Positions 46,641 to 62,916 of a stretch of 64,000 nt of DNA are shown one piece after another (position 1 is the first letter of the stretch; each line of letters opens with the position of its first letter). The stretch comes from Deltaproteobacteria bacterium (GTDB taxonomy: Bacteria > Myxococcota_A > UBA9042 > DTJE01). The notes under the pieces were generated by a model. The model saw only the letters and a program-made list of their open reading frames with translations. It searched no databases and had not been told where the DNA came from. Location: contig JAKPOP010000017.1 of the NCBI GenBank assembly GCA_029547805.1, positions 62,001 through 126,000 on the forward strand, written 5' to 3'. The position numbers were made by a program, and so were the translations under genes.

Positions 46641-47678
46641 ATGGTGCTGGGCATCACGGGCAGGAACGCCGCGGGCAAGGGAGAGGTCGCGGCCTTCCTG
46701 AAGGGATCGGGGTTCGAGTTCTTCTCCCTCTCGGACGAGTTGCGGCGGGGACTGTCCGAACGGGGCATCGCCCCCTCCCGGGAGGCCCTGATCGACGAGG
46801 GGAGGCGCGTCCGGGAGGAGCAGGGGCGAGATGCCCTCGCCCGTCGCGCGATGGCCCGCTTCACCCAGGGACTGAACCAGGTGGTGGACTCGATCCGCAA
46901 CCCCGATGAGGTCCGGGCCCTCCGGGAGTTGCCGGACTTCTTCCTGATCGCGGTGGATGCCCCCATCGAACTGCGGTTCCAGCGGGCCCAGGCCCGGGCC
47001 AGGCCCGGGGACCCGGTGGACTTCGAGGCCTTTCGGGCGGCCGAGGCCCGGGAACTGGCCAGCGGGAATCCGGCGGCCCAGCAACTGAACGCGACGATCG
47101 CGCTGGCCGACTTCACGATCCAGAACGACCGGGACCTGGAACACCTTCACGATCAGGTGCGGGAGGTCTTCCGGCAGGCCGCGACTCGCATCCACCGCCC
47201 CTCCTGGGACGACTACTTCCTCCGGATCGCCGAGGTCGTCTCGACGCGTTCCACCTGTGTGAAGCGGCGCGTGGCGGCGGTCGTGGTGAAGGACCACCGG
47301 ATCGTCTCGACGGGCTACAACGGGACTCCCCGGGGCACAAGGAACTGCAACGACGGCGGATGTCCCCGGTGCCTCTCCCTGGCGCCATCGGGATCGGGCC
47401 TCACGGACTGTCTCTGCAGCCACGCCGAGGAGAACGCCATCGTCCAGGCGGCCTACCATGGCGTCAGCCTTGCGGGAGCCACCCTCTACTGCACCTTCCA
47501 GCCCTGCGTGTTGTGCAGCAAGATGATCATCAACGCCGGGATCCGGGAGGTCGTCTATCGCGACGCCTATCCCTTGCCCGAGGCGGCTCGCCACCTCTTC
47601 CTGGAAGCGGGGGTGGTGGCCCGCCAGGGCCGGCGGAACCCGGAAGGGGAACCGGCACCCGGGGACGCTACTCCGTGA
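46641..47678 (+). CDS. P-loop kinase-like domain fused to dCMP deaminase
   Basis: VLGITGRNAAGKGEVAAFL (Walker A); RPSWDDYFLRIAEVVSTRSTCVKRRVAAVVVKDHRIVSTGYNGTPRGTRNCNDGGCPRC; CSHAEENAIVQAA; QPCVLCSKMIINAGI. Confidence 0.9.
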   Translation: MVLGITGRNAAGKGEVAAFLKGSGFEFFSLSDELRRGLSERGIAPSREALIDEGRRVREEQGRDALARRAMARFTQGLNQVVDSIRNPDEVRALRELPDFFLIAVDAPIELRFQRAQARARPGDPVDFEAFRAAEARELASGNPAAQQLNATIALADFTIQNDRDLEHLHDQVREVFRQAATRIHRPSWDDYFLRIAEVVSTRSTCVKRRVAAVVVKDHRIVSTGYNGTPRGTRNCNDGGCPRCLSLAPSGSGLTDCLCSHAEENAIVQAAYHGVSLAGATLYCTFQPCVLCSKMIINAGIREVVYRDAYPLPEAARHLFLEAGVVARQGRRNPEGEPAPGDATP

Positions 47679-53825: not shown

Positions 53826-54485
53826 ATGGCGTCGACGATCCTCTGGACCCGAAACCGCGGCGTGCAGGCGATGACCCGGGTGATTCTGGCCCGGCGTGGG
53901 GAACGGCCGCTGGTGGTGGAGACCCTGGCCGCCCTTCGGACCTCGGCCGCCGAGCGACTCCCCGGGGTCCTGATCACCACCGACGAGGACCTCGAGACGA
54001 GCGGCCTGGACCCCGCGTCCCTGGACCGCCTGTTCCCGGGAGTCCCGACCCTGGTCGTCTGTTCCGGAAGACGTCCCCTCCCCTCCCCGGTCGGCCCCCG
54101 GATGCGGGTGATCCCCCTCCCCTTCTCCGCGGCGGACCTCCTGGACGCCCTTCCGGCTCCCGGGGGACCCCGATCCCCTGAACCGCCGGGCCCGGCCGCC
54201 CCCGAAGCGGCCTTCACCGGCACCCGTCCACCGCCGGAGTCCGCCTCGGTTCCCGCCGATCCGGTGCTGCGCGACCGGGACCTGCAGGCCCTCGTGCAAC
54301 AGGAGGTGCGGAAACTGCTGGAGGCCTCCCTGCGGGAGTGGGTCCAGCGAACGGTCCGAGAGGTCGTCCCCGAACTGGCGGAGAGCCTGATCCGGGAGGA
54401 ACTGGAACGCCTGCTTCGGGAGTCGGAGGAGGCGGCCCTGCAGGGTCCGGTCCCAGAGGACTCCGAGTCCCCTCCTAGGAAGTGA
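53826..54485 (+). CDS. Degenerate receiver-like protein with amphipathic C-terminal helices
   Basis: RVILARRGERPLVVETLAALRTSAAERLPGVLITTDEDL...PLPFSAADLLDALPAP; C-term LQALVQQEVRKLLEASLREWVQRTVREVVPELAESLIREELERLLRE. Confidence 0.55.
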   Translation: MASTILWTRNRGVQAMTRVILARRGERPLVVETLAALRTSAAERLPGVLITTDEDLETSGLDPASLDRLFPGVPTLVVCSGRRPLPSPVGPRMRVIPLPFSAADLLDALPAPGGPRSPEPPGPAAPEAAFTGTRPPPESASVPADPVLRDRDLQALVQQEVRKLLEASLREWVQRTVREVVPELAESLIREELERLLRESEEAALQGPVPEDSESPPRK

Positions 54486-55227
54486 TTCGCGACGTCAGCA
54501 TCGACCCGAGGCTGCCGCTGAGGACCAGAGACCCGCCCCAGGCGGCCAGGAAGGCGATCCCCTGCCAGAAGGAATGGGAGGTCGCCGCGTGGACCACGCC
54601 ACCGGCCACGAGGACCACCAGGACGGTGGCCGCCACCTGGGCCCCCGGGCTCCCCATCCAGGCCCAGTTCGCCGTCGCCATGCCCATGCCCATCGCGATC
54701 CCGAAGCCCAGGACCGTCAGCACCCCCGAGAAGATCACGGCCCCGAAGACCCCCAGGCGCTCCCCGGGAAGCAGCACCGATGCCAGGATCAGCAGGGCCG
54801 GGACCAGGACCAGGATTCCCAGCATCAAGGCCAGCATCGACTTCACCTGGGCCACGAAGGTCCCGATGGCCGTGGCCCGGACGATGTTGGCCTGGAACAC
54901 CTGGAAGATCCGGAAGAAGAGGTTGTAGCGAAAGAGGGCCGGAAAGCGATCCGCCGGGACGCCGTTCACGCGGGCGACGGCCTGGATCGGGATCCGCCGG
55001 GCCTCCACCTGGTGCCCCTGAGCCTGGAAGGCGAAGTCCCCCTTGCCTTTCCGGACCTCCTCGGGCTGGTCCTTGGACTTCTGCCAGAGGAAGATGAGGT
55101 CCTCCCCCTCCACCTGTTCCACGACCCCGGTCCACTGTTCCCCGCCGAGGGTCTCGAGCGTCGCCGCCCTCGCCGTCGGCCCGACCCAGGACGCCACCAG
55201 GAGCACCATCATGCCGGTCCACCGCAT
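54475..55227 (-). CDS. Hypothetical membrane protein with signal peptide
   Basis: MRWTGMMVLLVASWVGPTARA; ETLGGEQWTGVVEQVEGEDLIFLWQKS; at least three hydrophobic segments. Confidence 0.7.
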   Translation of the reverse strand: MRWTGMMVLLVASWVGPTARAATLETLGGEQWTGVVEQVEGEDLIFLWQKSKDQPEEVRKGKGDFAFQAQGHQVEARRIPIQAVARVNGVPADRFPALFRYNLFFRIFQVFQANIVRATAIGTFVAQVKSMLALMLGILVLVPALLILASVLLPGERLGVFGAVIFSGVLTVLGFGIAMGMGMATANWAWMGSPGAQVAATVLVVLVAGGVVHAATSHSFWQGIAFLAAWGGSLVLSGSLGSMLTSRITS

Positions 55228-55471
55228 CCGCCCGCTCCACGCACTGGAGAGGTCTACTGTTGCAGAAGCGGCGTTCCGATTCAAGCCCCGGCGCCGCCCC
55301 ATGTCCGGACCACAAACCTCGACCGCGGTGAGGTCCGTTGCGGCCCGAGGAGCCCCGGGTGTCCAGGAACCGGCCCATCAGGACAGGGGCGAAGGGGATG
55401 GTCGCACTCCGGGTCGCTGGATCGGCGGCCCCGGTCTTCCAGGGCCGCAAGGCGACGGCCCGTCCCTGGAA

Positions 55472-56242
55472 TCAGGTGGTCGGGGGGAAGCAGGCCTGGG
55501 CCTGGATCGGGCAGTTGTGGTTCTGTCCATAGGCCTCGCAGGTCCAGGTCGGCCAGCCGTTCGCGTTGATGTCCGTCTCGGCGCACTCGATGCCCAGGAT
55601 GCAGTCCTTGTAGGCGATCCAGGTCGCCTGGGCCTCGGCGGAGCCCAGGCCGAAGCACCGGGCCGGGCACGCGGCATCATCGGGGTCACAGTCCTTGCGG
55701 CACTTCCAGATGTCCCGGCACGTCCCTCCGGGGGTCGGCCCGCAGGCGGTCAGCAGTTCCCGGCAGGCATCGAGCACGCAGTCGGTGTACTGCTCGTCCT
55801 GGAAGATCGGGTCGCATGAGGCGTTGGCGATGCAGTCCCGCAGGGCCTCCCAGGCCCCCGTGGCCCCGGACACGGGCTGCACCGCGCAGGCGGCCTGGAA
55901 CGTGGGATCGGGACACTGGATCGCGCAGGCGGCGATCTCGTGACAGGTCGATCCCCCCACCGACTGGGGACAGGATGCGGTTCCGTCCGTGGTTCCGGGG
56001 TCCTGGGTCCCACCGGGGTCCTGGACGTCCACGCGGCCCGGGTCCGGAGTCCCTGGGTCCAAGGGAACCCCCGGATCCCTGCCAGAGTCCTGCGGAGCCC
56101 CCGGGTCGGTTCCCGGGTCGGCCAGGTCCGTCACCACCGGGACGTCCCGGCCGAGGTCCGTCCCCAGGTCCGTCACGTCGTTCCCCGAGTCGCAACCGGC
56201 CAGGAAGCCCACGATGCCCATCACCGCCAGGAACTGTCTCAT
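55472..56242 (-). CDS. Cys-rich lipoprotein with Asp/Pro/Gly repeat linker
   Basis: VGFLAGCDSGND lipobox; LADPGTDPGAPQDSGRDPGVPLDPGTPDPG linker; about 18 Cys in CxxxC-type spacing. Confidence 0.8.
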   Translation of the reverse strand: MRQFLAVMGIVGFLAGCDSGNDVTDLGTDLGRDVPVVTDLADPGTDPGAPQDSGRDPGVPLDPGTPDPGRVDVQDPGGTQDPGTTDGTASCPQSVGGSTCHEIAACAIQCPDPTFQAACAVQPVSGATGAWEALRDCIANASCDPIFQDEQYTDCVLDACRELLTACGPTPGGTCRDIWKCRKDCDPDDAACPARCFGLGSAEAQATWIAYKDCILGIECAETDINANGWPTWTCEAYGQNHNCPIQAQACFPPTT

Positions 56243-56333
56243 CGTTCCCCCCTGAAATGGCCGGGGGGACCGGCAGCCTCGCGAGGTCGCCGATCCCCCC
56301 GGGAAAGAACCGCTGGTTCCAGGGCCGTTGGGC

Positions 56334-57530
56334 CTACTGGGCCGCCTGATCGTTCATGCAGGCGTTGGCCTGGCTCTCACAGGCGCCGCCGGCATTGATC
56401 GCCGCGTTCAGGCAGTTGTTGCAGTCGGTCTCCTGCTGGGGCGTCGGGTTCTCCACGTTGCAGACCGTGCAGGTGTCGAACATGCACTGGATCATGGCGT
56501 TCCAGAGCTGCCCGGCGGTCTTCGTGCCCTCCCGCAGGCAGTTCTGCACGCAGGCGCTGTCCTGGCAGGTCTGGAAGACGCAGGTGAACATCTCGCCGCA
56601 CTTCTTGGTGCCGTAGGTCGCGCACTTCTCCCACTGGGACGCGCAGGCGCCGTCGGCCGCCTGGTTCCAGCAGTCGTCGCAATCCTGCTGCTGCTGCGGC
56701 GTGGGATTCTCGACCTCGCAGACCGGGCACTGGGCCGAGGTGCAGTCGATGGCGTACTGGAGGTCCAGCTGGGCATCAGGAGTCGCCTCGCCCCAGCAGT
56801 TGCCGATGCACTCGCTGCGCTCGTTCACGTCGGGGGTGGCCGGGTTGTCCTCCGGGCAGGAGGTCAGGCAGCCGATCAGGCTTCCGCAGTTCTGGTACTG
56901 GCAGCCCCAGAAGCAGTGGTAGTACTCGGAGATGCACTTCTGCTCCAGGCAGGCGTAGAACTCCTCGTCGGTCTGAGCATTCGCGCAGTTGCGCTGCAGG
57001 CACTGGATGAAGTTGTTGTAGTCCGTCAGGCCCCGGACCGACAGGTTCGACTGGCACTGCTGCCGGCAGGCGTTGCCGGTGGCGTCCTGGGGGCAGTCGG
57101 CAGCGCACTCGAAGTAGCCCTTGCAGGACCGGGCCCCCTCGTCCACGCAGGTCTGGGTGCCCGGGTCCGTGCCCTGGTCCACGCCGGTGTCGGTCGGCGG
57201 CGTCACGGTGTCGGTCCCGTTGTCGGTGGGGGGCGTCACCGTGTCGGTCCCGTTGTCCGTCGGCGGGTTCACCGTGTCGGTGCCGTTGTCGGTCGGCGGC
57301 GTCACCGTGTCCCGGCCCGTGTCGGTCCCATTGTCCGTCGGCGGCGTCACCGTGTCCCGGCCCGTGTCCGTCCCGTTGTCCGTCGGCGGATTGACGATGT
57401 CCCGACCCGTGTCGGCCCCCGTGTCCGTCGGCGGGATGATCACGTCCTGGCCATTGTCATTGCTGCTGTCGCAGGCCGTCATCCCGACGGTCAGCGCCAG
57501 CACCGCGAAGATCCCCAGACACTGCTTCAT
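56334..57530 (-). CDS. Cys-rich lipoprotein with TVTPPTDNGTD(TGRD) repeats
   Basis: LTVGMTACDSSND lipobox; seven PPTDxG units; more than 25 Cys in the C-terminal region. Confidence 0.85.
   Translation of the reverse strand: MKQCLGIFAVLALTVGMTACDSSNDNGQDVIIPPTDTGADTGRDIVNPPTDNGTDTGRDTVTPPTDNGTDTGRDTVTPPTDNGTDTVNPPTDNGTDTVTPPTDNGTDTVTPPTDTGVDQGTDPGTQTCVDEGARSCKGYFECAADCPQDATGNACRQQCQSNLSVRGLTDYNNFIQCLQRNCANAQTDEEFYACLEQKCISEYYHCFWGCQYQNCGSLIGCLTSCPEDNPATPDVNERSECIGNCWGEATPDAQLDLQYAIDCTSAQCPVCEVENPTPQQQQDCDDCWNQAADGACASQWEKCATYGTKKCGEMFTCVFQTCQDSACVQNCLREGTKTAGQLWNAMIQCMFDTCTVCNVENPTPQQETDCNNCLNAAINAGGACESQANACMNDQAAQ
57185..57440 (-). repeat. In-frame tandem repeat, 33-nt and 45-nt units encoding TVTPPTDNGTD and TVTPPTDNGTDTGRD
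   Basis: Repeated gtcggcggcgtcaccgtgtc(ccggcccgtgtc)ggtcccgttgtc blocks. Confidence 0.9.
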
Positions 57531-57594: not shown

Positions 57595-57623
57595 ATTGTC
57601 GCAGAATGTCCTCGCTCTGTCAA
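57595..57623 (-). promoter_or_regulatory. Strong candidate sigma70 promoter (TTGACA-17-GACAAT)
   Basis: Minus strand, 65 nt upstream of the 56334..57530 start. Confidence 0.6.
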
Positions 57624-57662: not shown

Positions 57663-58898
57663 TCAGGAGACCGGGGCATTCGGTCGGGAGCCCGCCCCTG
57701 CGGGATCGGGCCAGAGGCGGACCTCGAACCGGGCGCCGCCCGACGGACGATTGACCGCCCCGATCTCGCCGTTGTGGGCCTCCACGATCAGCCGCGCCAT
57801 GTAGAGCCCCATCCCCAGTCCCCCCTCCCCCTTGGTGCTGACGAACGGCTCGAACAGCCGGTCCGCCGCCCCCTCGGGCAGCCCCGGGCCCTCATCCTCC
57901 ACGGCAAGCCGGATCTGGCCGCCCTGCAGGATCCCGGCGGAGACGGTGATGGCCTGGCCCTGGATGGTGGCTTGGACCGCATTTCGCAGCAGGTTCACCA
58001 GCACCTGGATCAGTTTTCCCCGGTCCCCCTGGATGGGAGGGAGGCCGTCCTCCACGAACGTCTGCACCCGCCGGCGTCGGAACTCCACGTCGCCCCGCAT
58101 CACCACCAGGGCGTCCCGGACCAGGTCGCCGACGTCCACGGTGGAGATGGCGGTCCCCAGGCGCCCGTCCCGGGAGAACTGGTGCAGCGACTCCAGCGTC
58201 CCCATCAGGGCGTGGAGCCCCGACAGCCCGACACGCACCGACTCCTTCATCTCCTCGGAAGCCCCCATCGACTCCAGGTCCGCCTCCAGGAAGGTGAGCC
58301 CCATCAGGGCGTTCCGGAGGTCGTGGACGACCCCCGTGGCCAGGCGGCCCATGCTGCTGAGCCGCTCCATGTGCAGCATCCGCTGCTGGGCCTCCCGGAG
58401 TTCCTGGAGCGTTCGCGTCAGGTCCTCGTTCCGAACCGCCAGGCGTTCCAGCAGTCCCGTCACCGCCCGGCGATAGAAGACCATCTCCTGGGCCTCCCGG
58501 ACGGTCCGGACCAGGTCCCCGATGTCAAAGGGCTTCGTGAGGAACCGGAAGACCTTCGCCTCGTTGATCGCCTGAAGAATCACCGGCGCGTCGGTATAGG
58601 CCGACAGCACGATTCCGACCACGTCGGGTCGCTCGGTGGTCAGGCGCGACAGCAGGTCCACCCCCGTCAGACCGGGCATCCGCTGGTCCGAAATCACCAG
58701 GTCCAGGGGCTCCGCGAGAGCGCTGGCGAGCCCCGAGGGACCGTCGGTGGCCCGGACCACCCGGAGGCCCTCGTCCTGCAGCACCGCCTCCAGGACGTCC
58801 AGGTTTTCGGGCTCGTCATCGACAATCAGGATCGCACGATGCAGCAGGTCCCCCATTCCCTGCTGTTCCACCAGTCGCTGGAGGGTCTCGATGCCCAT
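57663..58898 (-). CDS. Receiver-domain sensor histidine kinase
   Basis: AILIVDDEPENLDVLEAVLQDEGL...DLVISDQRMPGLTG...FLTKPFD; RLATGVVHDLRNALMGL (H-box); NLLRNAVQATIQG; VEDEGPGLPEG; GGLGMGLYMARLIVEAHNGEI. Confidence 0.93.
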   Translation of the reverse strand: MGIETLQRLVEQQGMGDLLHRAILIVDDEPENLDVLEAVLQDEGLRVVRATDGPSGLASALAEPLDLVISDQRMPGLTGVDLLSRLTTERPDVVGIVLSAYTDAPVILQAINEAKVFRFLTKPFDIGDLVRTVREAQEMVFYRRAVTGLLERLAVRNEDLTRTLQELREAQQRMLHMERLSSMGRLATGVVHDLRNALMGLTFLEADLESMGASEEMKESVRVGLSGLHALMGTLESLHQFSRDGRLGTAISTVDVGDLVRDALVVMRGDVEFRRRRVQTFVEDGLPPIQGDRGKLIQVLVNLLRNAVQATIQGQAITVSAGILQGGQIRLAVEDEGPGLPEGAADRLFEPFVSTKGEGGLGMGLYMARLIVEAHNGEIGAVNRPSGGARFEVRLWPDPAGAGSRPNAPVS

Positions 58899-58990
58899 CG
58901 CAAGGCGAGTATAGGGGCCACCGGTGCACACCGGCAAGTTTTCTTCCGCCCGTTCCCCCTCTATCATTCTCTCCTCGACAGGAGGCCCCG

Positions 58991-60298
58991 ATGGACCGTC
59001 GTTCCCTGGTGCTCCGCAACGTCCGACTCCCTGGAAGGCCGGGACATCCCGGGACGGACGTCCTGGTGGAAGGAGGTCTCTTCGAGCGGATCGGGGGGGC
59101 CGTGACGCCCCGGGAGCCGGCCGTCGAGATCGACGCCGGGGGAGCCTGGCTGGTCCCGGGAGCCGTGGACATGCACGTCCACCTGCGCGACCCGGGATGG
59201 ACCCACAAGGAGGACCTCCAGAGCGGGTCCCGGGCCGCCGTGGCCGGGGGCGTCACCACCGTCTGCGACATGCCCAACACGGTTCCCCCGACCCTGGGCC
59301 TCGAGGACCTCCGGGCCAAGGCGGCCCGGGCCCGGGAGGTGTCCCTTTGCGAGATGCGTTTCTTCCTGGCCCTGGCCCAGGACAACCTGGACCAGATCGC
59401 TCGTTGCCTGGAGGAGCCGGCCTTCGCCGGAGTCAAGGTGTTCCTGGGGGCGACCACCGGGGACCTCCTCTCGGGCGACCGGGCCCTGGAGCGGGCCGTG
59501 GACCGGTTTCCGTGCCTCTTCGCCTTCCACGCCGAGGACGAGACGGTCCTCCAGGAGGCCCGTCGCGGAGCAGGCCCGGACCCCACTGCGGCGGACCACC
59601 ACCGACTGCGCCCGCCCGAGGCGGTGGTCCGGGGGGCCCTCCGGGTGGCGGGCCTCTGGCGCCCCGGAAGGCGCCTGCACCTCTGTCATCTCTCCTCGGC
59701 CCGGGAACTGGAGGTCCTCCGGGACCACCCGGGACTCACCGCCGAGGTGACGCCGCACCACCTCTGGTTCACCGCCCAGGACACCGGCGCCCTGGGCAAC
59801 TGGCTCAAGGTGAATCCGCCGGTCCGACTGGCCGAGGATCGGGAGGCCCTCCGGAGGGCCCTGGCCGACGGCGCGATCGACGCCGTGGCCACGGACCACG
59901 CGCCCCATACCCTTGAGGAAAAGGCCCTGCCCTACCCCCAGGCCCCGTCGGGGGTGCCGGGACTGGAGACCTCCGTGCCGGCGGTCCTGCGCCTGGTCCA
60001 GGAGGGACTGCTGACCCTGGATCGGGCCGTCGAGGTCCTCTCGGCCACGCCGGCCCGCCTGCTGGGCCTTCGGGACCGGGGGGCGATTGCCGAGGGACTC
60101 CGGGCCGACTGCTTCCTGTGGGACCCCGATGGAACCTGGGTTCCCGAGGCCGGAGACCTGGTCAGCCGCTGCCGCTGGAGTCCCTTCTTCGGCCTGCCGC
60201 TGGCCCGGCGTCCCCTGGCCACCTGGGTGGCCGGGGTCCTGGTGCATGCCTCGTCCGAGTTCCGACACAGAACAGGGATCACTGCCCCTGCTGATTGA
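58991..60298 (+). CDS. pyrC: Dihydroorotase
   Basis: VDMHVHLRDPGWTHKEDLQSGSRAAVAGGVTTVCDMPNTVPP; HLCHLSSARELEVLRDHPGLTAEVTPHHLWFT; DAVATDHAPHTLEEK. Confidence 0.94.
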   Translation: MDRRSLVLRNVRLPGRPGHPGTDVLVEGGLFERIGGAVTPREPAVEIDAGGAWLVPGAVDMHVHLRDPGWTHKEDLQSGSRAAVAGGVTTVCDMPNTVPPTLGLEDLRAKAARAREVSLCEMRFFLALAQDNLDQIARCLEEPAFAGVKVFLGATTGDLLSGDRALERAVDRFPCLFAFHAEDETVLQEARRGAGPDPTAADHHRLRPPEAVVRGALRVAGLWRPGRRLHLCHLSSARELEVLRDHPGLTAEVTPHHLWFTAQDTGALGNWLKVNPPVRLAEDREALRRALADGAIDAVATDHAPHTLEEKALPYPQAPSGVPGLETSVPAVLRLVQEGLLTLDRAVEVLSATPARLLGLRDRGAIAEGLRADCFLWDPDGTWVPEAGDLVSRCRWSPFFGLPLARRPLATWVAGVLVHASSEFRHRTGITAPAD

Positions 60299-61145
60299 TG
60301 GCGACCTGCACGGTCTGGAGCACCAGTCGGGCCGGCTCGATCAGTTCCGTGGCCTGCCCGGTGACCTGGGCGGTGACGATGAACTTCTTGAGGTAGAACA
60401 TGGCCTCCCGGAAGCGGTTCTTCCGGATCAGGGCGTTGGCCAGGTTGAAGGCCCCGGCCAGATTCTCGGGGTCCAGTTCCAGGCTCCGGGTGAGGCTCTC
60501 GATCGCCCGGTCGACCTCCCCCATGCTCAACTGCATCAAGCCCAGGTTGTGGTGGCACTCGGCGTCGTCGGGATTCAGGCGGACACACTCCTGGAAGACC
60601 GCCAGGGCCTCCTGTTCCGCCCCCTGCTTCCGGTAGAGGCTGCCCAGGCCCGAAAAGGCCCGGGCATACCCGGGGTCCAGGTCAATGGCCTTCCGATAGA
60701 GGTCGTCCGCCTCCCCGATCCGCCCCTTCTGGGCCAGCACGTCGGCTGCCCAGAAGACGGCCCCCACGTGCCCCGGGTTCAGTTTCTGGGCCTCCTGGAA
60801 CCGGGCCAGCGCCCCGTCCAGGTCCTTCTTCGCGATGGCCAGGCGCCCCAGCTGGAAAATGGCCTCCGCATCCTTGGGCGCCAGCCTGGAGGCTTCCCGG
60901 AGCTCCCGCTCGGCCCCAATCAGGTCCTCTTTCTCATGGAGCAACAGCATGCCCAGTTGGAGGTGCGCCGCGGCGTTCTTGGGATACAGGTTGATGGCCG
61001 ACTCGAAGAGGGCCTTCGCCTCGGCCACGTCCTTCCGGTCCCAGGCCTTGATCCCCCGGTTGGTCAGGGCGATCGAGTCGTTCCGGGCCCGGCTGCACGA
61101 CGACAACAACAGCGCCACGACCACCAGGGAAAGGACCTTCTTCAT
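60279..61145 (-). CDS. TPR-repeat lipoprotein
   Basis: MKKVLSLVVVALLLSSCSRARN lipobox; at least six TPR units. Confidence 0.85.
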   Translation of the reverse strand: MKKVLSLVVVALLLSSCSRARNDSIALTNRGIKAWDRKDVAEAKALFESAINLYPKNAAAHLQLGMLLLHEKEDLIGAERELREASRLAPKDAEAIFQLGRLAIAKKDLDGALARFQEAQKLNPGHVGAVFWAADVLAQKGRIGEADDLYRKAIDLDPGYARAFSGLGSLYRKQGAEQEALAVFQECVRLNPDDAECHHNLGLMQLSMGEVDRAIESLTRSLELDPENLAGAFNLANALIRKNRFREAMFYLKKFIVTAQVTGQATELIEPARLVLQTVQVAINQQGQ

Positions 61146-61173
61146 GATCGACTCCTGCCGCAGGGCGAGGGAC

Positions 61174-62916
61174 TCACCGGGTCGTCGTGGCCCGGAAGAT
61201 GAACGGGTACACGACCCGCGCGATGCCGCCACTCTTCGGGGCCGGGAACTTCCAGGTCACGATGCGGGTCTTCAGGCACTGCTCCACCGCCGCACTGCCC
61301 AGGGATCCGCCGGTCGCCCGGACCTGGGCCACGCTCCCGTCGGCCAGGATCAACCACTCCATGTTCACGTCGCCCTGAAGGGACGGGTTCTTCTGGAGTT
61401 CCTGCTGGTAGCACCACTTGACCTGGTCCATCTTGGTCTGGATGTAGCGCCGAACCGTCTCCTTATCCAGTTCGCCGGTCACCGACGAGGGGCCGGAATA
61501 GACCACGGGCTCGCCGCCGCCCCGGAACCTCAGCCGCGACGCCGCGCCCTCCGCCTCGCTCCGGGACAGTCCCTGGATTCCCCGGAGGTCCGCCGGCCCG
61601 AACTCCGAACCGCCGCCCCAGCCCGTTCCCCGGAAACCACCGCCTCCGCCGCCGCCCAGGGTCCCGCCAAAGGCATCCAGTCCCATGGCCAGTTCGGCGT
61701 CCAGTCCCCGGTCCCCGATGACCCGGATCCCCATCATTCCGCCGCCGATCCCCGGCCCGACGGCATCCAGGACCTGATTCATGAGGTCCTGCTGGTCCCC
61801 CAGCACCCGGGTCAGTGCCGTGTCGGCCACCTGCCGGTCCTTCTGGACCTGGTCCTCGGTCACCAGGCGGCTCGTGGGCTTTTCGTCCACCGGACGCTGG
61901 CTCAACACGGTCCCGGGCTGCTGGACCTGCTGGGCCTGTTCCAGTTTCCGCCGCTCCTCCTCCCGCTCCTTCTTCTCCTCTTCGACCTTCCGCTCGAGCA
62001 TCGCCACCTGGATCCGCTTCAGGGCCTCGGTACGCCGCTCATAGGGGTCCCGGACGGCCCGCAGCTGCTCCTCGGGGACCAGGGTCACCAGCACCATGAA
62101 GGCCAGATGCAGCACCAAAGACACCAGGAGATAGAGGTGCTCCCGGAGGCTGAAGCGCCGGGTCCAGGACCCGACCGGGCGCCTGGACGGCAGCGGCGAC
62201 AACCCCATCACGAAGACGAAGGCCCCCAGTTGGAGTCGGGCCCGGGTCTTCCGGTTGATCCGCACGTAGCGCCCCTGCTCGACCAGTTCCCGGCGCCGCA
62301 TCTCGGGCAGGCGGACGATCCGGCCCTCGACCAGGAAGTCCCCCTCGGCACCGGGCAGGGACACGTCCAGCAGAAAGTCCTCCCCGTCGGGACGCGCCAG
62401 TTCCACGCTCGCCCCGCCGACCACCTCCTCCGGGAGGAAGACCCGGGCCTTGGGGTCCGTGCCGACGGTCAGGGTCTCTCCGGGTCGGAGGAGGTCCGTG
62501 TAGAGGGTCCGATCCCCCCACAGCATCGACACCTCGAGACCCAGGGGCCCGGCGGCATGGTCCAGGGCGCCGGTCCATGCCCCGTCGGCGATGGCCCCGG
62601 ACCGGGTCGCCTCGTAATCGAACACGAGAGTCGTGTCGCCGATCTTCACCTCGTCACCGGGATTCAGGGCGGCATGGCTGACCTTCTTCCCGTTCACGAA
62701 CGTCCCGGAGGCGCTCTCCAGGTCCGACAGCAGGACCTCCCCCGAGTCCTTCCACTCGATCATGCAGTGGAGGTTCGAGACCCCTTCCCCCTGGAGCCGG
62801 AGGTGGTTCTGGCCTCCCCTTCCGATCCGGATGGTCCTCTGGGTGAAGACCTCCTCCCGGACCAGACTGCCCCCTTCGTAGATACTGACCCGGATGGTGG
62901 GCGTCTGTTTGGACAT
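61174..62916 (-). CDS. FHA-domain protein with TM segment and AgmX/PglI-type C-terminal (TonB-like) domain
   Basis: TIRIGRGGQNHLRLQGEGVSNLHCMIEW...SASGTFVNGKKV (FHA); C-term IQTKMDQVKWCYQQELQKNPSLQGDVNMEWLILADGSVAQVRATGGSLGSAAVEQCLKTRIVTWKFPAPKSGGIARVVYPFIF. Confidence 0.9.
   Translation of the reverse strand: MSKQTPTIRVSIYEGGSLVREEVFTQRTIRIGRGGQNHLRLQGEGVSNLHCMIEWKDSGEVLLSDLESASGTFVNGKKVSHAALNPGDEVKIGDTTLVFDYEATRSGAIADGAWTGALDHAAGPLGLEVSMLWGDRTLYTDLLRPGETLTVGTDPKARVFLPEEVVGGASVELARPDGEDFLLDVSLPGAEGDFLVEGRIVRLPEMRRRELVEQGRYVRINRKTRARLQLGAFVFVMGLSPLPSRRPVGSWTRRFSLREHLYLLVSLVLHLAFMVLVTLVPEEQLRAVRDPYERRTEALKRIQVAMLERKVEEEKKEREEERRKLEQAQQVQQPGTVLSQRPVDEKPTSRLVTEDQVQKDRQVADTALTRVLGDQQDLMNQVLDAVGPGIGGGMMGIRVIGDRGLDAELAMGLDAFGGTLGGGGGGGFRGTGWGGGSEFGPADLRGIQGLSRSEAEGAASRLRFRGGGEPVVYSGPSSVTGELDKETVRRYIQTKMDQVKWCYQQELQKNPSLQGDVNMEWLILADGSVAQVRATGGSLGSAAVEQCLKTRIVTWKFPAPKSGGIARVVYPFIFRATTTR

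Follow-up and report, generated by a model that had tools for sequence, protein, structure and literature searches.

The Myxococcota are known for predation, gliding and kin recognition. The kin-recognition receptor TraA of the Myxococcales is a surface protein with a PA14 domain, a MYXO-CTERM tag and tandem Cys-rich repeats (TIGR04201), the last of which have been proposed to form a stalk (PMC3325183). Gliding in Myxococcus xanthus involves CglB, a lipoprotein adhesin of the cell surface that the Glt complex holds (PMC12288465; PMC13104615). In this report we focused on two adjacent genes, A and B, in a 64,000-nucleotide stretch of DNA (hereafter the window) from an assembly of 4.08 Mb, whose closest named relative is a Myxococcota genome apparently from a sludge digester, a habitat guessed from the isolate name. 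Like TraA, A and B have tandem Cys-rich repeats, but neither matches TIGR04201 at E ≤ 1, nor do 30 units at E ≤ 0.1; they are lipoproteins with neither a PA14 domain nor a MYXO-CTERM tag, and their C-termini, which stop just past the last unit, lack a transmembrane tail. The parallel with CglB, a lipoprotein associated with a Glt-type machine, is one of context only, in that Glt-like genes are located close to A and B; there is no sequence match, and the von Willebrand A domain of CglB is found in neither A nor B by Pfam. The repeat unit described below is shared, in 2-3 copies, with secreted trypsin-like proteases of the Myxococcota with a MopE motif, which have an enzyme domain, whereas A and B have none. 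Dicty_CTDC repeat proteins (PF00526) are a last point of comparison, a long Cys-rich lipoprotein of this type being encoded near the pair in one relative, but A and B do not match PF00526. In that relative (G010, L043:10971-16187), two long lipoproteins are encoded downstream of the pair, the first with the Dicty_CTDC repeats and the second from the same sequence cluster.

The main finding of this study is that the Cys domain of A and B is a tandem array of a single type of unit, about 70-90 residues long, with ten near-invariant Cys in an alignment of A, B and their relatives. The spacing is C-x5-C-x3/4-C-...-C-x3-C-x~17-C-x4-C-...-C-...-C-x6-C, and among 30 diverse units nine of the Cys never vary and the tenth is conserved in at least 90%. 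In spacing, length and tandem arrangement, three stretches of A and two of B correspond to this ten-Cys helical repeat (Table 1). A model of the unit from which B sequences were left out still matches B at 2e-13. Shuffling the residues of the A domain 20,000 times produced a seven-Cys spacing pattern 0.003 times on average, whereas the real domain has it three times. A preliminary description of this DNA had reported a C-x5-C-x3-C spacing and two internal repeats of 22 residues. Both are real, the repeats being the middle parts of A units 2 and 3, but this picture was incomplete: there are three whole units in A and two in B, and it missed that the Cys domain consists of a single repeat unit that is common to B and spread through the phylum. 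For A unit 3, AlphaFold2, supplied with an alignment of ten units from the window and a congeneric genome (L039), predicts five helices and helices only (mean pLDDT 87). Because the model of the whole multi-unit domain is poor (pLDDT 67, pTM 0.36), it does not give the shape of the array or the stacking of its units.

Table 1. Features of the A-B locus and of neighbouring genes, in window coordinates
Feature	Position	Strand	Description	Evidence
Gene A	56334..57530	-	398-aa predicted lipoprotein; repetitive linker and three ten-Cys units	ORF; lipobox MTAC followed by DSSND; orthologues in relatives
Gene B	55472..56242	-	256-aa predicted lipoprotein; Asp/Pro/Gly linker and two ten-Cys units	ORF; unit-model match
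A linker, residues 21-127	57150..57470	-	Thr/Pro/Asp/Asn repeats TVTPPTDNGTD (33 nt) and TVTPPTDNGTDTGRD (45 nt)	TRF; copy list and codon differences
A unit 1, residues 136-209	56904..57125	-	10 Cys	Unit profile
A unit 2, residues 215-306	56613..56888	-	12 Cys; optional CxxC...CxxC pair present	Unit profile
A unit 3, residues 311-398	56337..56600	-	12 Cys; whole unit at residues 311-394	Unit profile; AlphaFold2 model
B unit 1, residues 100-170	55733..55945	-		Unit profile
B unit 2, residues 175-254	55481..55720	-		Unit profile
Sigma-70-like promoter	57595..57623	-	TTGACA-17-GACAAT, upstream of A	10/12 consensus matches
A-B intergenic stretch	56243..56333	-	Strong GC-rich hairpin	Fold z = -2.0 (window), -2.0 (L039, congeneric)
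Gene C	54475..55302	-	275-aa predicted membrane protein; adjoins A-B in several other loci	No family match
Response regulator and histidine kinase	57663..58967	-	Directly upstream of A	
TPR lipoprotein	60279-61232	-	Upstream, same strand as A-B	
GltG-like FHA and AgmX/PglI protein	61174-62916	-	Upstream, same strand as A-B	

This unit is an unnamed, widespread and probably disulfide-rich module, new as a family although of a generally known kind. The statement in the preliminary description that the Cys domain belongs to no recognised family held up against the databases, since no curated Pfam or NCBIfam threshold is exceeded and the PDB offers no match in sequence or fold. Searches of Pfam, NCBIfam and PDB sequences with the whole proteins and 30 units returned no match passing the cut-off, and Foldseek with the unit model found nothing significant, with best E-values of 4.4 (PDB) and 3.3 (viral models). 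Relaxing Pfam to E ≤ 10 for A and B yielded no domain, save a chance match of 10 residues. Weak matches to Hefutoxin, LRV_FeS, Nitrophorin, MAG3960, TraR and BigA were judged to reflect chance or low complexity; the autotransporter adhesin BigA (NF033178), for example, scores 37 bits over the low-complexity linker only, against a curated cut-off of 3400 bits. A literature search found no description of a ten-Cys repeat of this sort, and the copies attached to proteases likewise have no Pfam model.

The unit is nevertheless common. At E ≤ 1e-6 its profile has matches in 93 of the 379 Myxococcota genomes, none of the 52 sampled from the window's class lacks one, and the loci that we read contain 205 units in 76 ORFs, with 1-7 per ORF. 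Counting paralogues in the bacterium's own genome gave nine units in four proteins, namely A, B, a lipoprotein on contig C15 and a trypsin-like protein on contig C9. The partner domains include trypsin, accompanied by MopE motifs, and in one case (L112) a C-type lectin domain. Predicted secreted trypsin-like proteases with 2-3 units are encoded in the own genome (L056:8722-10779, on C9) and at L059, L108 and L112, mostly with the MopE motif; the L056 protein ends in a Cys, a transmembrane segment and Arg, a tail that is MYXO-CTERM-like by eye and has no NCBIfam match. Several units also occur in giant Cys-rich proteins of ~1,650-1,690 residues without a Pfam match (L101:2638-7713 and L107:2716-7683), and in L101 they are interspersed with repeats of the type CGxDGCGGxCG. 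A module found so commonly among the secreted proteins of an entire Myxococcota class has no Pfam or NCBIfam name, and we propose that it is a general extracellular module of this phylum. With the module defined, many hypothetical lipoproteins gain an annotation, as does part of several secreted proteases, and a short list of conserved surface proteins becomes available for testing.

A and B are both intact ORFs on the minus strand. As read from their sequences, each has a hydrophobic signal at its N-terminus, followed by a lipobox (MTAC before DSSND in A, LAGC before DSGND in B), so that both are predicted bacterial lipoproteins in the sense of having an N-terminal signal sequence with a lipobox Cys, and most orthologues have a comparable lipobox. 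A pair of lipoproteins with CDSSND and CDSGND at this site is what the preliminary description had claimed; only its gene order needs reversing, as the repeat-bearing gene, which it placed second, is the first in transcription order, with B 91 nt downstream. The +2 residue is Asp in A and B, and Gly, Ser or Asp in orthologues. Inner-membrane lipoproteins of M. xanthus have Lys at +2, with no rule for outer-membrane ones; Asp at +2 retains lipoproteins in the inner membrane of E. coli, which counts against a surface location, but in Klebsiella PulA it accompanies type II export to the surface (PMC3222651). We consider a surface location of A and B likely and, because the unit is present in many relatives and in some is fused to secreted proteases, regard the pair as a likely conserved component of the surface of these bacteria.

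The adjacency of the two genes is that of a true pair. A followed by B on one strand is conserved in 12 genomes. The window's family, with 13 genomes, contributes 11 of them, and a second family of the order the remaining one. In these 12 pairs B has two units in every case and A three to five, and the gaps between the genes range from -67 to 134 nt, with ORF starts assigned mechanically. The pair is kept where the flanks differ (G004, G007, G010 and G013), and two looser pairs of unit proteins are found in other families (L062 and L129). Near-universal in one family, it constitutes a clear genetic target. The promoter proposed upstream of A is indeed there and is the sole such site in a 3.35-kb stretch, for which shuffles give an expectation of 0.2. 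Between A and B, the hairpin has ~15 uninterrupted pairs and is predicted in the congeneric genome too, although its flanks differ. It is not followed by a T run and the stretch has no terminator-like site, which led us to reject a terminator, and a dispersed repeat is unlikely, with just short partial matches elsewhere in the genome; the hairpin is possibly an element of mRNA processing or stability. In several relatives, related kinases are found upstream of A, separated from it by a PilZ/methyltransferase-like gene and by a second kinase, a membrane hybrid.

On balance, we lean towards a reading in which A and B are co-transcribed, tethered surface lipoproteins whose disulfide-stapled helical arrays bind a ligand, a partner or a substratum. 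Both proteins would be exported and then lipidated at the lipobox Cys, an acidic disordered linker of ~70-150 residues would serve as a spacer, and the C-terminal disulfide-stapled helical array of ten-Cys units would present a binding face outside the cell. With its 3-5 units, A would form a stable pair with B, which always has two, the two being most likely partners in one complex that may bind a ligand, a surface or a neighbouring cell.

The Cys themselves allow a different chemistry, in which the units would bind or store metal (copper, zinc or an iron-sulfur centre) and form no disulfides. Cys density is indeed very high, with 35 Cys in the last 270 residues of A, the spacing of the optional CxxC...CxxC is similar to that of a four-Cys metal site, and the trypsin fusions bear putative metal-binding motifs of MopE. 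However, among 175 fully parsed units, the C7-C9 segment has one Cys in 139, three in 36 and two in none, which means that the optional pair is absent in the 139, complete in the 36 and never represented by one Cys alone; these counts are inflated by shared ancestry, but the pattern is nonetheless seen in many divergent proteins. Because the two optional Cys are gained and lost only jointly, we take them to be probably bonded to each other and rank a metal site lower, and this joint behaviour argues for disulfides. On the other side, only 53 of 76 unit arrays, whose ends were cut automatically, have an even total of Cys, which counts against the disulfide reading. The A domain is poor in His and Met, the proteins would be exported to an oxidising compartment, and no metal-site family is matched significantly (LRV_FeS, at E = 0.03, was hit by one member only and is below cut-off), all of which makes the metal explanation distinctly improbable. 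The linker invites yet another explanation, that A and B are length-variable surface antigens for which slippage of the linker repeats is the functional point. The preliminary description had proposed such slippage, and the repeats that it listed are present: TRF detects a 33-nt array at 57184-57327 (4.4 copies, 83% matches) and a 45-nt array at 57272-57435 (3.6 copies, 86% matches), which together form a series of 14-15-15-11-11-11-11 residues. Repeat motifs differ among orthologues, and the sole close relative, a congeneric genome with a domain 87% identical and an A gene truncated at the edge of its contig, repeats this series apart from one missing TGRD insert (4 residues, 12 nt); a search of genome contigs with the Cys domain as query matched one locus. 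The case for variation by slippage is nonetheless weak. Every repeat length is divisible by 3 nt, which keeps repeat changes in-frame and unable to switch the gene off, and the copies have diverged from one another. Orthologous linkers are acidic and rich in Pro, Gly and Thr, mostly 75-115 residues long, and share no common sequence; the distant ones have unrelated motifs of similar acidic composition. Most orthologous linkers are not tandem arrays. A role as variable antigens is thus very improbable, and we read the A linker as a spacer, not a switch.

Even with disulfides and a spacer, the arrays need not bind anything. The units might serve chiefly as a scaffold or spacer that resists proteases, with a structural role and no specific ligand, like the stalk proposed for TraA, as would suit tandem arrays of variable number and the fusion of units to varied catalytic or binding domains. 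Against this, A and B display no other folded domain at the end of the array, and B is fixed at two units in 12 of 12 pairs; we regard a purely structural role as possible, if fairly unlikely. The neighbouring genes raise the possibility that A and B supply the outer, adhesive component of a Glt-like trans-envelope machine, with a role like that of CglB. The TPR lipoprotein and GltG-like genes upstream on the A-B strand are followed, beyond the window end (L144:2780-11613), by genes for a GltC-like protein and a TPR protein of 1401 aa. The four make up a Glt-related trans-envelope cluster that is partly conserved in the family, and GltG-like and TPR genes adjoin the pair in six other genomes of the family. 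However, the cluster proteins score below the NCBIfam cut-offs (262 vs 650 for GltG and 286 vs 450 for GltC), PyrC and a kinase intervene between the pair and the cluster, and in the four genomes where the pair has different flanks no Glt gene was seen on the stretches examined, some of which are short. Together with the missing von Willebrand A domain, this leaves a CglB-like role unlikely, although a link of the pair to an envelope machine would be worth testing. It is more doubtful still that the unit represents a new disulfide-stapled helical fold and that A and B form a dedicated two-protein surface receptor or adhesin, which would work with the neighbouring kinases and the Glt-like machine in sensing or gripping surfaces or cells. 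Our preference stays with tethered surface lipoproteins that probably bind a ligand, partner or substratum.

Two further observations concern other genes of this genome. An unrelated lipoprotein encoded on contig C25 (L007:1354-2607) has a linker with the VTPPTDNG motif of A, with 75% DNA identity over 127 nt, a likeness that suggests exchange or convergence of linkers. Elsewhere in the window (46641-47678, plus strand), a single protein fuses an AAA_17 nucleotide-kinase-like domain to a dCMP deaminase domain.
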